Assembly: GCA_030765065.1 (NCBI GenBank)
Contig: CM060990.1
Span: 460,620,321 to 460,684,320, forward strand
DNA: 64,000 nt
Source of the DNA: Deroplatys truncata
Lineage: Eukaryota > Arthropoda > Insecta > Mantodea > Mantidae
Direction: 5' to 3'
The position numbers and the translations under genes were made by a program. Shown here one piece after another: positions 4,813 through 56,764 of the stretch; within the stretch, counting starts at the first letter, position 1, and each line of letters starts with the position of its first letter. The notes beneath the pieces were generated by a model that saw nothing but the letters and a program-made list of their open reading frames with translations, did no database searches and was not told the origin of the DNA.

Positions 4813-5127
4813 TGAAATGTGCTTGCGATAAAGGAAGGGGAGGGCCCACGTAAAATAACCGGTGTAATGGCACGCTTGGATGCTGACGGGGTTACATTTC
4901 ACTGTAGTCGCATGGATTTTGCTTCTTTATATGAAAAAAAAGAGTACAGTTTTATTAAAAAAATAATATCTTTACAATATAAAACAGATATAAATAGCTT
5001 AATTTTATTGCTGAAGATTAGTACAACATGAAATTACAAAGTAAAAGCTCATTAAAAAAACTAAAACCTAAAAAGCAATCTATTGTAACGAATACGGCAC
5101 ACCAGGCTATAAAGGGTTAAGGGTAGT

Positions 5128-5138
5128 GAATATTATGG
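5128..5138 (+). repeat. 11-bp target-site duplication, left copy
   Basis: GAATATTATGG occurs here and again at 6924-6934, immediately after the element's A-run. The pair brackets the ORF1-only retroelement and fixes its 5' end at about 5139. Confidence 0.8.
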
Positions 5139-6541
5139 GGACTTCGCTTCGAGACTCCGCCGAGGTAACATCTCAACGGTTCGCCGAGATCATCGAAATG
5201 GGGAAGAGGAGAAAACGTCGAGCCGCTGAGGAATCCACCGCTGCTTCCCCGGCTCCGGCCGCGGACAACGCCGTTTCGCCGGCAGCTTCACCGGCATCCG
5301 CCGGGAAAGCTGCATCGCCGCCACCGCTGACCGGGCACAGCTACGCTTCGGCCGCTGCTTCACCCGGTCGCACTACTGCACCACCGGAGCAGGAACTTCG
5401 ACCGCCACAGGTTGCCACCAGCCCTGCTACTCCTACACAGGGTTGCACAACACCACAGACTGCCGCCGGCTTACCGCCACTGGTGAGTCCACTGTCGCCG
5501 CAGACGCACCCTCCTTCAGATGGCCGCCACAGCGTTGTCATCTTTGGAGTGCCGAGAGATCTTCCGGTGCACTTCGTGCTGGATGCTGCAAGGCACCACT
5601 GGCGCTCTGCTATTCGGGCATCCCGGATAACCTCAACCAGAGGGCCAACACCGCTGGTACGCCTCCAGCTGGGTTCCGCCTCGGACGCTCAGGCGGCCTT
5701 GCGATCAATCCTGCCTCTTTTGGGGCAGTGTTTGCGTGTCGAGGCAAGCAGGAGTGAACGTCCGGTACCCTGCCGCCGCTGTTGTGGCTACGGTCACTCA
5801 GCGCAGGCATGCAACGCCGCACCTCGGTGCCACTACTGCGGAGCAGGTTGTCTTACGGCAAACTGCATCGCCCACGACCTCCGCCGACGACGCAAGTTCT
5901 GCGCCACTTGCTCTGGGCACACGCACTTCACGGGGCAGGCTCAGTGCCCCCTGTACCCCCGGAGCAAGCCACCAGCTGGGTCAGCTGCGCTGACGACGAC
6001 CACCAAACCGCCTCCGCCGACGGCCAACAAACAGCCTCCGCCGACGACGCCCCGTGTAAGGGGAACATTGCATCCACCTCATTCGGGACTACAAGACACG
6101 CTGTCTGCATTGCAGACTACTCTCCAAGACTTCACCGCTCGCATGGCTGAGCTACGCTGTGCAACCAACACGCGCCTAGCGGCCGTGGATGCCAAGCAGC
6201 GGACCTCGGCCAGGGCAACCTTCTCATTCTCTAGACAGGTCTCAGAACTCCAGGGGGACGACGGGATCCTCGCATCGGTTCAGCGCAAGCTGACACGCAT
6301 CGAGGGCCACCTCGTTGAACCAGATGACACAGAGGCGGAAAGCGACGACCGACCCACGCGACTGGGAGCCCTTGAGGCGTCAGTCGCGGGGCTTCGAGAG
6401 CTCCTAGCCGATACCAAGAACTCCCTATCACAGACCATATGGTATCTCTTTGACGAGATCCGTGGAATTCCAACAGTTCCACCGAAGGACTGGCCCTTCG
6501 CGCCGCGCAGGGGACGCGCCAAGAACCCGAAGTACTATTGA
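5135..6541 (+). CDS. Gag-like ORF1 protein with three zinc knuckles
   Basis: About 468 residues from the ATG at 5135; the frame is also open from GTG 5126. The 5135 ATG lies in the flanking target-site duplication, so the element's own start is more likely the ATG at 5198 (MGKRRKRR). Order of domains: basic N-terminus; Ala/Pro-rich low-complexity stretch (~30-125); RRM-like/PRE_C2HC region (~130-210, SVVIFGVPRDLPVHFVL); three zinc knuckles (~213-271). Knuckle 1 is a canonical CX2CX4HX4C (CRRCCGYGHSAQAC). Knuckle 2 (CHYCGAGCLTANC) has Cys where the family has His. Knuckle 3 is CATCSGHTHFTGQAQC. A heptad-rich C-terminal region (~325-450) is predicted coiled coil. In jockey/R1-type LINEs this protein binds element RNA to form the RNP. 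No ORF2 follows. Confidence 0.85.
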   Translation: MGTSLRDSAEVTSQRFAEIIEMGKRRKRRAAEESTAASPAPAADNAVSPAASPASAGKAASPPPLTGHSYASAAASPGRTTAPPEQELRPPQVATSPATPTQGCTTPQTAAGLPPLVSPLSPQTHPPSDGRHSVVIFGVPRDLPVHFVLDAARHHWRSAIRASRITSTRGPTPLVRLQLGSASDAQAALRSILPLLGQCLRVEASRSERPVPCRRCCGYGHSAQACNAAPRCHYCGAGCLTANCIAHDLRRRRKFCATCSGHTHFTGQAQCPLYPRSKPPAGSAALTTTTKPPPPTANKQPPPTTPRVRGTLHPPHSGLQDTLSALQTTLQDFTARMAELRCATNTRLAAVDAKQRTSARATFSFSRQVSELQGDDGILASVQRKLTRIEGHLVEPDDTEAESDDRPTRLGALEASVAGLRELLADTKNSLSQTIWYLFDEIRGIPTVPPKDWPFAPRRGRAKNPKYY

Positions 6542-6923
6542 ACACCGCACCTCACTTACCGCAGCAGCAAGCTGGGAACTGCTGCCACACATCACTCCTA
6601 GCTATCCTATACCCTTCACTCCTGAATTCCTAAGGGCGCAAGTAGGGCCTCGGTCATGCTTGCGTCCTGGCACCATCCTTTCTCCTGGCTTAGGCCCTCG
6701 TGGCCGGCCAGTATATCCGCACCCATGACTGCGCTGGTGCAATAGCGGTAGAGCCACAGTATCACACCTTACTTCCTCTCTTTTTCCTTCTTCACTTTTT
6801 CCTTCCGGTGGAGGAGTTTTTAGTGGGTATGCCGACTATTGGTGAGTCCCACACTCTCAGTCTCGACTCCCATCGGGGCTGGGGTAAGTGATTAAATCAT
6901 TTTCTCCTCCACTCGAAAAAAAA
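5139..6923 (+). mobile_element. ORF1-only non-LTR retroelement (half-LINE-like)
   Basis: A GC-rich 1.79-kb insertion in AT-rich DNA. It has an intact gag-like ORF1 ending at 6541, a ~380-bp 3' untranslated region and an eight-base A-run (6916-6923), flanked by an 11-bp target-site duplication. No endonuclease or reverse transcriptase frame exists between ORF1 and the tail. The last ~120 bp (from CCGGTGGAGGAGTTTTTAGT at 6805) is nearly identical to the LINE 3' end at 55855-55975. That shared tail suggests priming by the same LINE machinery. Alternatives are an autonomous LINE that lost ORF2 by internal deletion after insertion, or a 5'-truncated copy of such a derivative. The intact frame suggests recent insertion. 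Confidence 0.8.
6542..6915 (+). other. 3' untranslated region of the ORF1-only element
   Basis: The distal part, about 6797-6915, is shared with 55847-55965 and carries the conserved GTGATTAAATCATTTTCTCC and CACTCGA just before the A-run. The proximal part (6542-6790) shows no similarity I can see to the other copy. The shared tail is a candidate recognition site for a partner reverse transcriptase. Confidence 0.65.
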
Positions 6924-6934
6924 GAATATTATGG

Positions 6935-53227: not shown

Positions 53228-55148
53228 TAGCAGCGACAACAGGACGATTTTCAATCTCTCATACCAGTGCCTGTCGCAGTATTAACTGTACTGTAAGCCT
53301 GTGCATCATCGCATTTCAAGACTAATGTTAGAACACATAACTAGCTCGAATTTTATTGTTAAGCAACGTAAGTGCAGGTTTGCAAAGCGACTGCACACCG
53401 ATGTTGAATTGAAATCCTTGAAAACATATGTGCGCTTTGTTTGGAATGAGGAAAAACCACGCTGAAAGTGTAGGGCGTTCGAGCAGGACATGTGAGACCG
53501 ACGACAGTCTAAGCATAAACCTGTGCAGACAGAAAACATGCCCACGGAATTCATGGTTACTTCATTTGACATGTGAGAAAGATTGCAACATAGGATATTG
53601 ATTCCTATCATATTTATGCATGTTTTGACGTGCATTATTACGACGTTGTCTTCGAAGACGAGATTTAGGTTCACCCTGTTATACGGCTTAATACTACACT
53701 TTTGACCTTAATTATAATAATACGGAAAAGTTCTTACTTCAAAACTTTTGAATTATGCTTCACTATAACTCTGAAAATTGGATAAAACTGAATAGGAGAA
53801 AAAGTACCTCTTGCTAATGGACAATCACTATTTCTAGAGAACAGCTCCTACAGCACGATGGAATGAAATGTAAATTACTAAACTCTAAATTGAGGTTAAT
53901 TATTGTTCATTGTTGTGGTCAGAACTGGAGGTTGTCGAAGAAATGAAGGAATTAAATAAATGCGACCAAATAGAGTAACTTTCACGACAGAACGTTAGAG
54001 GGAGCAATGCTAGAAAAATTCTAGCTGCTGACCTCTAGATATGTGATACGTACTGCCTTGCATGAAGAGTGTCTTTTTTTAGCAGTGCATTCATAAACAA
54101 AACATGTTATTCTAAGTACAAGATCCCGCAGAAGCACAAATGTTACGACACAGGCAAACAAATGTGAAAAAAAGGAGCAAAAGAGAAAAGGAGAACTCCC
54201 CGTTTCTGGAATCCTTACTCAGCTGAAAACAACAAACAGGTTTAACGTCACGTGCACATCAACCTACGCAGTAAACAAAACTACGGAAATACAGAACACA
54301 GGAATAATACAGCCACAGAAGAATCTACCAGAAACATTTCGATACAGTTGCTGCATTGTTTTATAACGTGTGTTATCCACGCAGCTCGTTACATTTTGCA
54401 GCAATTAATATGCTTTGTTTTCCAGGGATTTATCATACTGAACATTAGTCACCGATATTTATTCTTATATATTCACAAGTTGCAACTGGTGTACTACTCT
54501 TATATGTCGTGAGTATAAGATGCTGAGCGGAGTTAGCTCTGAGATTGGAAGCATCTCATCATTAACGGAGCTGTACACACAAACTGTTATATACGACCGT
54601 GATCCACTCTGGGAGATTTTTGTTGAAACAGCAACTATAGCGATATCAGAGTTACACTACGGCTGGATTCCGGCTATCTAAAAGGCTGCATAAAAGATAC
54701 ACTGAAGGCGAAAATATGCTTTGATTGTAGTTTTAGAGCGATTCATGACCTCACTCAAACTGTCACGTGGTGGTCCTCCCTCCGTTCTGCTCTAGAATGC
54801 AGTACACCTTTCAGGGATTTTTTCACGAGTAGAGAACCGCACTCTACTGCGTTATTTACATATTTAAGGAGACTGCGAATATGTGATTTATTTGAACACA
54901 CACAAACTAAAACAATGAAATATGCTCATTCCTGTTTGAACTTGATAGATTTAGTGTAAAAGTTACACTAATATCAGTACACACGGTGTACCCGAATCCC
55001 CGACCAATTTTGAAATTATATCTCGTAGTTGTGCACGGCGCTTCGATAATATCTGCTGTATGTTGCAGGGGTTTGATAAAATTTTAATCACTTGGGAGTT
55101 GTGGCTCTGTACATACATATATACGTAAAACTCAGCACATATCCCATA
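53228..55148. other. No recognised gene
   Basis: Frames of 86 codons (54252-54512, plus) and 122 codons (53306-53674, minus) have no domain. A small hairpin TAGTGTAA-aag-TTACACTA lies at ~54952-54970. 'cacacggtgtacccgaatcc' (~54981) resembles a mariner-type end without partner. Confidence 0.4.
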
Positions 55149-55439
55149 TACCTGGTGTCCCAGAGCACACGTATCAGCTGTTTTTCTCTAAAAGTATAAG
55201 ATACTTGTTCGCAAAAACAATTTGATAACCAAAACCTATGTAAAGAATCGATTGGTGGTACTTCCATTTTTTGGAACAAGCCGAAAGTTGGGATACTCGT
55301 GGTCAACTTTCAAATTTTAAATGGGAACATGGTTTGTTTAAGGTATCATTGGATACTACTTTTAAAATGAAACAACGCTTGCCAAAACTTTTTTTTTTTT
55401 CTGTCTTATAATGTTTACTCACAAATGAACGATAGACTC

Positions 55440-55700
55440 CTTCGTCAACATTTTGCACCAGTTGTGTTTGATGGTGTTCCTCTGGCTGTGCGGTTACCGA
55501 TGTGACTTCAACAGGATGGCTGTCCGGCTCAATTTTCACTTAGGACTCGGCAAGTTCTTGACCAGTTGTTTCCTGGACGGTGGATTGGACGAGGAGGCCG
55601 GCCTGATCTCCTTACATAACACCAAACAACTTCTTATGGGGGAGGATTAAAGACATTCTCTATCAGGTGCGTCCTACAACTAGGCAAGATATGAAAGAAA
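55440..55700 (+). pseudogene. Mariner-superfamily transposase relic, catalytic middle
   Basis: The plus strand gives FDGVPLAVRLPM, LQQDGCPAQFSLRTRQVLDQ (second catalytic Asp), LFPGRWIGRGGPA and FLWGRIKDILYQVRPTTRQD in shifting frames. The order matches a Tc/mariner-superfamily transposase whose N-terminal half has been deleted. The gene is split at ~55706 by a LINE tail and resumes at ~55980. Confidence 0.8.
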
Positions 55701-55705
55701 GTTCG

Positions 55706-55975
55706 CTGAGGGGGCAGGCTGGGCCTTGGTCAAGCCTGTCTCCCAGCACACAATCCTTACTCCTCTGGCGACCGCACTGCGGCACAGTCTTAAACCATCA
55801 CCTCGGAATGCGCGAGTGCTTTAGGCGGTACCGCAGCAAACCTTTCCTTTCAATCCGGTGGAGGAGTTTTTAGTGGGTATGCCGACGCTCGGTGAGTCCC
55901 ACACTCTCATTCCCGACTCCCATCGGGGCTGAGGTCAGTGATTAAATCATTTTCTCCTCCACTCGAAAAAAAAAA
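55706..55975 (+). mobile_element. LINE 3' end inserted in the transposase gene
   Basis: A 5'-truncated LINE of about 270 bp ending in a ten-base A run. Its last ~120 bp (from CCGGTGGAGGAGTTTTTAGT at 55855) is nearly identical to the tail of the ORF1-only element at 6805-6923. The upstream ~150 bp is not obviously shared. An imperfect duplication (AAGTTCG at 55699-55705, AAACTCG at 55973-55979) may mark the target site. Confidence 0.8.
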
Positions 55976-55978
55976 CTC

Positions 55979-56097
55979 GAGCAGCCTGTGCGTCTCTCAG
56001 CAGTGATGAACTTCTCCGTGTCATCAACAATGTTAGGAGTAGATCATAGCGTTGTTTAGCACAGAGTGGTCGACATTTTGAACATTTAGAGTGAGTG
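55979..56097 (+). pseudogene. Transposase C-terminal end after LINE insertion
   Basis: RAACASLSSDELLRVINNVR, then RCLAQSGRHFEHLE and a stop. This resumes the transposase reading that ended before 55706 at MKE, which shows that the LINE split a gene already inside the mariner-like element. Confidence 0.75.
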
Positions 56098-56324
56098 TTC
56101 ACAATCATTACCATCGGTACGTACAGCATTTCTCAGAAGAAGTCATTAATTTGTTTACCTTTGTCTTTCATTTGTGAATAAACATTAGAAATAGAAAAAC
56201 GTTTTGGTAAAAGTTGTTTCATTTTAAAAATAGGTACTATCCAATGATACCTTAAACAACTCATGTTCCCATTTAAAGTTTCAAAGTTTCAGGAAATCGG
56301 ACCGGCCAGCGTACTGGTCCTCCT

Positions 56325-56480
56325 CATCCAATCCACCGTTCAGAAAACAACTGGTCAAGAACTTGCCAAACCCTAAGTGAAAAGTGAGCCGGACAGCCAT
56401 CCTGTTGAAGCCACATCGGTAACCGTACAGCCAGAGGAACACCATCAAGCAATTGGTGCAAAATGTTGACGAGGAAGTCA
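56325..56480 (-). pseudogene. Inverted duplicate of the transposase middle
   Basis: Minus-strand DGVPLAVRLPMWLQQDGCPA, HFSLRVWQVLDQLFSERWIG matches 55450-55610 on the plus strand. The Trp codon intact here is a stop in the left arm, so each copy has its own lesions. Confidence 0.8.
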
Positions 56481-56764
56481 ATCGTTCATGTGAGCGAACA
56501 TTAGCAGATAGAAAAAAAAGTTTTGGTAAAAGTTGTTTCATTTTAAAAGTACTATTCCATGATACCTTAAACAACGCATGCTCTCGTTTAAAATTTCAAA
56601 GTTGACCACGAGCACTCCTACTTCTGGTTTGTTTCAGAAAATGGAAACCCACCAATCGATTCTGTACATAGGTTTTGGTTATCAAATTGTTTTTGAGAAC
56701 AAGTATCTTATAGTTTTAGAGAAAAGCGGCTGATACGCGTGCTCTGGGACACCCGGTATAAAAA

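Follow-up and report, generated by a model that had tools for sequence, protein, structure and literature searches.

A dispersed family of gag-only half-LINEs in a mantis genome, its candidate Jockey-type helper and an insertion preference downstream of TATA boxes

A retroelement found in the analysed stretch of DNA (the window, 64 kb) bears a gag-like ORF1 with zinc knuckles but no ORF2, and thus raises the question of whether it is one damaged LINE or a member of a mobile family, and, in the latter case, which enzyme might move it. In our view this element is, quite probably, a gag-only and non-autonomous derivative of a LINE, and would be mobilised in trans by a Jockey-type LINE acting as helper and inserted at TATA start sites.

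An ORF1-only element and its relatives in the genome

The element is full-length and occupies 1785 positions (5139-6923), comprising a zinc-knuckle ORF1 of 447 amino acids, which is its one long frame, a 3' UTR, an A-run and a target-site duplication (TSD), without ORF2 (Table 1). The 11-bp GAATATTATGG brackets the element, as the sequence-only reading had claimed, and occurs exactly twice in the 64 kb; if one mismatch is tolerated, the window contains 4 matches vs 1.93 expected. The stretch between these two copies contains the longest ORF with an ATG start in the window. The ORF1-only architecture proposed in the same reading also held, with the start of the frame corrected from 5135 to 5198. 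The ATG at 5135 is located inside the left TSD, so that the ORF listed from there begins partly in host sequence, while the element's own ATG is that at 5198 (MGKRRKRR...). Six-frame translation of 6541-6934, judged by eye, revealed no ORF2-sized frame; the ORF1 stop is followed by 382 nt to the element end, the last eight being A (6916-6923). The GC content is 60% in 5128-6934 vs 38% in the window.

Table 1. Features of the window that are discussed in the text
Feature	Position	Strand	Basis or remark
TATA box TATAAAGG of target site	5108..5115	+	33 nt upstream of ACTTCG start
Left TSD GAATATTATGG	5128..5138	+	exact repeat search
Two extra G ahead of start motif	5139..5140	+	copy comparison
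5' UTR	5141..5197	+	first 14 nt ACTTCGCTTCGAGA (16 including GG) identical to partner LINE start
ORF1, 447 aa, intact	5198..6541	+	stop 6539-6541
Three zinc knuckles (aa 192-250)	5771..5947	+	motif read by eye
Predicted helices (aa 296-422), coiled-coil-like	6083..6463	+	low-confidence model
3' UTR including A-run, without ORF2	6542..6923	+	six-frame translation
3' UTR part common to partner LINE	6616..6923	+	88% over 310 aligned columns
Structured 124-nt tail	6800..6923	+	predicted closed multibranch RNA fold; 98.4% identical to partner LINE tail
Right TSD GAATATTATGG	6924..6934	+	exact repeat search
5'-truncated family-B copy, nearly same tail	55702..55973	+	similarity to element tail

Other copies were sought in the assembly from which the window comes (4.29 Gb, 818 contigs). 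With 5128-6934 as the query, the best 40 of 4321 loose candidates were scored and gave 57 matches; with the ORF1 region alone, the best 40 of 2078 were scored, and these were 87-100% identical, two short fragments excepted. The latter fell at the loci of the whole-element search and at one new locus (C10:131485077), whose downstream piece contains no ORF2. The alignment was built from 42 copies, 30 being loci of the whole-element search and 12 coming from later searches, and 38 of them span both the start and the stop of ORF1. The sequence-only reading had named a full ORF2 in all other copies as the mark of a single deleted LINE; an ORF2-sized insert was found in none of the 42 copies, the largest additional piece near the ORF1 end being about 0.1 kb, nor was ORF2 found at the extra locus. 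The comparison of these copies bears out a mobile family. Among the 30 loci, 20 begin at element position 1-7 and all extend to position 1784-1785 of 1785, and 14 have ends marked by an exact direct repeat, 7 nt long or more; L005, L009 and L019 are excluded from this count, as the repeats there run into A-runs or an adjacent copy.

Two further families with the same organization were recognized besides that of the window (family A). In family B, ORF1 is related to that of family A in all six longer pieces and is followed by 3' UTR and tail, without ORF2; the identity to family A amounts to 51-73% of amino acids in the best stretch, 67-74% of DNA in ORF1, and 91-94% in the tail. The truncated family-B copy of the window lies in the middle of a foldback element (55147-56760) with long inverted arms, whose pieces of 112-142 nt are 84-94% complementary. 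Family C was discovered adjoining a B copy and has a tail identical at 97.4% over 116 columns. The region examined was the 0.7 kb or so preceding the tail; in 19 of 20 pieces, of which three are heavily truncated, the 3' UTR directly follows an ORF1-like C-terminus, while the remaining piece (L078) is interrupted by another element. Family C resembles family A only weakly (best tblastn E 3e-6). Because the tail is common to them, families B and C were suspected of being the helper, and both were rejected as ORF1-only. A fourth ORF1-only family, considered for L078, was also rejected; this piece is better read as the A-run of another element that leads straight into a truncated C tail. The region L078:1-700 carries another ORF1-like C-terminus, a UTR and an A-run, and possibly represents another gag-only element with a different tail.

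Structured tail and a partner LINE with the same ends

The 124-nt tail is predicted to adopt its closed multibranch fold at -50.9 kcal/mol (z -5.3). Its mean divergence from the window copy is 2.7% vs 12.1% for the other 3' UTR, and it is the closer of the two to the window copy in 41 of 41 copies. This comparison takes the place of the identical tail of L022, which was dropped as evidence of conservation, since L022 is a mosaic: its first 600 nt are about 15-18% off the window copy, its 3' UTR outside the tail 3.5%. L024 is a half-LINE of the same kind, with a 5' part about 15-18% off and a 3' UTR a few percent off the window copy, and the two suggest template switching or recombination between subfamilies. 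Counts based on a tree are blurred by such mosaic copies, and with this limit the tail accumulated 0.18 changes per site on internal branches vs 0.85 in the other 3' UTR, and 0.61 vs 1.03 on terminal branches. In a fold test on 14 sequences, in which the structure was derived from one of the 14 and the tails form essentially two groups, 78.8% of cells pair vs 42-50% in slid controls, and double-change cells number 25 vs 0-13; two of the five shuffle measures went unexceeded (double-change pairs 5 vs 4.7, pair types 14 vs 16.2). Divergent tails with a similar layout occur in other LINEs of the genome. Seven RT-bearing elements of this kind (L096, L099-L104) suggest that the tail fold is conserved throughout a LINE clade; L099 has an additional cut tail piece at the end of its stretch, identical at 83% over 77 columns.

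A LINE with this tail was found by an RVT_1 profile search of the genome, in which the best 150 of 91717 loose candidates were scored and about 1.7 kb downstream was examined for 14 of these. The whole tail is present, at 98.4% identity, downstream of one of the 14 (L095), and the full tail is absent from the downstream pieces of the 13 other RT elements, among which are the seven with divergent tails named above. The three other matches with the profile span of L095 (C3, C2, C1) carry it too, which makes 4 of 4 at about 98.4%. Many of the best 150 RT candidates have 925-aa frames, several of them on small contigs or near chromosome ends. The C3 copy of the partner LINE has an ORF1 of 496 aa with a PRE_C2HC match (E 1.7e-8), and the RT frame (RVT_1) is open over 947 aa. 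The APE match was obtained on the C6 piece, the ORF2 start of which is like that of C3; in C6 itself, the 5' part of ORF1 seems to be missing. Matches to the partner ORF1 region were 86-100% identical among the best 40 of 522 loose candidates. PRE_C2HC is, presumably, a pointer to a Jockey-type ORF1. The whole set of APE and RT in ORF2 together with a knuckle ORF1 bearing PRE_C2HC, which we take to mark a Jockey-type LINE, is present in the partner. In APE and RT the partner is similar to the Jockey-superfamily LINEs (PMC4120745).

The last 308 nt of the half-LINE are common to this LINE at 88% identity, and its first 14-16 nt are identical. From the ends held in common, mobilisation in trans, which the sequence-only reading had put forward, appears likely, with the partner LINE as the likely helper. 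On the other hand, the formula of that reading, ORF1 kept and RT lost, was not supported as worded, as the end-sharing LINE has a different ORF1. No similarity between the two ORF1s was detectable by tblastn (E above 2), and hhalign aligns them at a probability of only 0.1%, even though each has three knuckles in a row; PRE_C2HC was undetected in the half-LINE ORF1s scanned. Mere removal of ORF2 from that LINE would thus not yield the half-LINE, which wears the LINE's ends around another gag. A genome split between a gag element and a gag-less pol element was also considered, and was rejected because the helper owns an ORF1.

One alternative would be an origin in the manner of HAL1, by deletion of ORF2 from a LINE, extinct or still present, that had this ORF1 and would then have mobilised its derivative. 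The sharing of both ends with a LINE and the row of three knuckles in both ORF1s are in agreement with such an origin; however, the ORF1 of the end-matching LINE is not detectably similar and has PRE_C2HC, and no ORF2 follows ORF1 in the family A and B copies or the family C pieces examined. No LINE joining the half-LINE ORF1 to an ORF2 was found among the best 40 candidates scored per search, and, as only the best candidates were scored, a LINE with this ORF1 could exist unseen. We regard a HAL1-style origin as possible, though doubtful.

TATA boxes upstream of the insertions

The TATA box upstream of the window element has counterparts at other insertions. They were counted in the last 45 nt before the element in 38 half-LINE copies, some of them 5'-truncated (L005 and L019, which lie behind another copy, as well as L039a and L044b were omitted). 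The loose motif TATAA[AG] was found in the sense orientation in 14 of the 38 flanks, vs 2.7 expected from those flanks, and on the reverse strand in 3. For the form TATA[AT]A[AG] the numbers were 8 sense vs 5 reverse, and for the strict TATA[AT]A[AG]G 7 sense vs 0.3 expected, with none on the other strand. The 45 nt located 3' of the element contained the motif in 1 of 30 cases. Since the C3 copy of the partner LINE showed the same TATA arrangement, the partner was tested on fresh copies; 20 flanks were fetched, and the motif lies 29-40 nt upstream in 10 of the 18 recognised 5' ends. The binomial values for the enrichment are 1.8e-7 and 9.5e-8, under an assumption of independence that is weakened by shared target repeats. 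The loose motif is missing from 24 of 38 half-LINE and 8 of 18 LINE flanks, and none of four family-B flanks, inspected by eye and with less certain 5' ends, contained a TATA motif.

Half-LINEs and partner LINEs were also found in the same targets: half-LINE L013 shares a target repeat with LINE L107/L108, and half-LINE L029 with LINEs L107 and L123. Judged by TATA spacing and these shared targets, the target is non-random and common to copies, a preference and not an absolute rule. L013, L015, L029, L031 and L107/L108 are inserted at one and the same position of a repeat that contains a TATA box as well as a start-like motif, CAGTTC, and this repeat is perhaps an LTR or a multicopy promoter. 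Half-LINE and LINE copies stacked head-to-tail at one site were noted at L039, L042, L121, L128 and L129, as would be expected if one start site is hit again; L039 and L042 are occasional tandem pairs of half-LINEs, and at L121, L128 and L129 the partner LINE is placed directly behind the tail of another copy.

It could be argued that the enrichment reflects merely a preference of the endonuclease for AT-rich DNA, or a few targets hit repeatedly, and the target repeats shared by L015/L029/L031, L010/L033, L112/L115 and L116/L118 point in that direction. Such an explanation is nevertheless unlikely in view of the one-sided strict motif, the nearly empty 3' flank and the narrow spacing, with 11 LINE flanks at 31-40 nt (including the copy that prompted the idea); moreover, about 11 of 35 half-LINE and 8 of 16 LINE flanks are left with the motif after shared targets are collapsed by hand. 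The number of leading G residues varies from 0 to 5 in 21 half-LINE copies and from 0 to 10 in 18 copies of the partner LINE, and these residues are possibly untemplated and derived from a cap. We propose that both elements insert at promoter start sites and that the promoter may be captured thereby.

Constraint on ORF1 and the proposed cycle

No significant match to the half-LINE ORF1 was found among Pfam, NCBIfam and PDB sequences. In a poor AlphaFold model (mean pLDDT 45), residues 111-170 follow an RRM-like beta-alpha-beta-beta-alpha order, with long helices after it. Many Cys and His residues of the knuckles are invariant or nearly so in 16 aligned sequences, and in the second knuckle a Cys stands in place of the CCHC His; divergent copies have an insert of about 21 aa in the C-terminal part. 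The possibility, raised in the sequence-only reading, that ORF1 is under selection was supported by dN/dS values of 0.27-0.80 across 21 pairs of intact family-A copies, the highest being that of the close pair L001-L008. The values are 0.28-0.54 across 21 A-B pairs, and 0.36 and 0.38 in two B-B pairs, vs 0.75-2.64 in four wrong frames, while a reverse frame that shares third codon positions gives 0.35-0.94. On the 42-copy tree, blurred as noted above, internal branches have a per-site ratio of nonsynonymous to synonymous changes of 0.52 and terminal branches one of 0.67, vs 1.05-1.69 in the two shifted frames, and an earlier count on 30 copies went in the same direction. Our reading is that ORF1 was under constraint during the time in which the family had no ORF2.

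If, in contrast, ORF1 were a passenger and only the ends mattered, as in a large SINE-like element, its decay in most copies would be understandable: it is open (438-460 aa) in 7 of 42 and broken or truncated in 35, and the regions that change least along internal branches are the tail and the 5' UTR. The nonsynonymous deficit on internal branches relative to shifted frames, the A-B ratios and the near invariance of many knuckle residues make a passenger role distinctly improbable. A gag-derived host gene or processed retrogene, for which the intact frame, A-run and TSD could be cited, is hardly credible given that copies are numerous and dispersed and agree in 5' start and structured tail, and that families B and C exist besides. 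A single LINE deprived of ORF2 after insertion, as one copy alone could look, is already refuted by the uniform lack of ORF2 in copies that lie on many chromosomes, at internal positions and in their own flanks, many with TSDs.

In the mechanism that we favour, the half-LINE RNA would begin at ACTTCGCTTCGAGA and encode an RNA-binding ORF1 protein alone, which most likely packages its own RNA. The tail of this RNA would be copied from, or co-evolve with, that of the autonomous Jockey-type LINE. The partner ORF2 protein would recognise the structured tail, nick the target and reverse-transcribe the RNA in trans (target-primed reverse transcription). Both elements would prefer to insert in the sense orientation at Pol II start sites, some 30 nt past a TATA box, and each new copy could then be transcribed from its first base by the promoter it has captured; the next target would be another promoter start site, where target-primed reverse transcription would close the cycle.

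To our knowledge, gag-only LINE parasites are known mainly from mammalian HAL1 (half-L1), for which Bao and Jurka (2010) is said to be the reference, and from Drosophila HeT-A. In the titles and abstract openings covered by our literature search, outside of which most subscription papers fall, we found no TATA-directed LINE and, HeT-A aside, no such arthropod half-LINE. HAL1 has ORF1 only, an A-tail and TSDs, is derived from L1 and relies on RT/EN of full-length LINEs (PMC5322556, PMC4859970). The half-LINE described here shares with it an ORF1 without ORF2, the A-tail, TSDs and many copies, but the helper found here, unlike L1 in the case of HAL1, has an ORF1 that is not detectably related, and in addition to its A-run the half-LINE has a structured 3' tail; moreover, several families coexist and TATA promoters are favoured. 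Non-autonomous elements of SINE/LINE pairs with stringent recognition bear the 3' end of the partner LINE with a predicted RNA structure (PMC3747384). The common tail of the half-LINE (98.4% over 124 nt) resembles this arrangement, whereas a protein under selection and the 5' start of the partner set it apart. HeT-A is a gag-only non-LTR element, confined to telomeres in head-to-tail arrays, with RT thought to be supplied by TART or TAHRE (PMC5537684). By analogy, its way of life would be the closest to that of the half-LINE, which is gag-only and, to judge from the shared ends, may obtain its enzyme from another element. However, the half-LINE is dispersed at internal positions with TSDs, favours TATA promoters and forms only occasional tandem pairs.

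On balance, we lean towards a wider picture, in which a Jockey-type LINE landing at TATA start sites would capture host promoters and support a radiation of at least three families of gag-only parasites, each with its own, independently evolving gag; all of them terminate in the LINE tail, and the family represented in the window also begins with the LINE start, so that the relationship may be a dispersed, HeT-A-like partnership. With several gag-only families and a candidate helper in one genome, it becomes possible to ask why a parasite should retain a gag of its own. If true, insertion of a LINE at TATA start sites would provide a natural means of promoter capture, and could explain how such elements remain full-length and transcribed.
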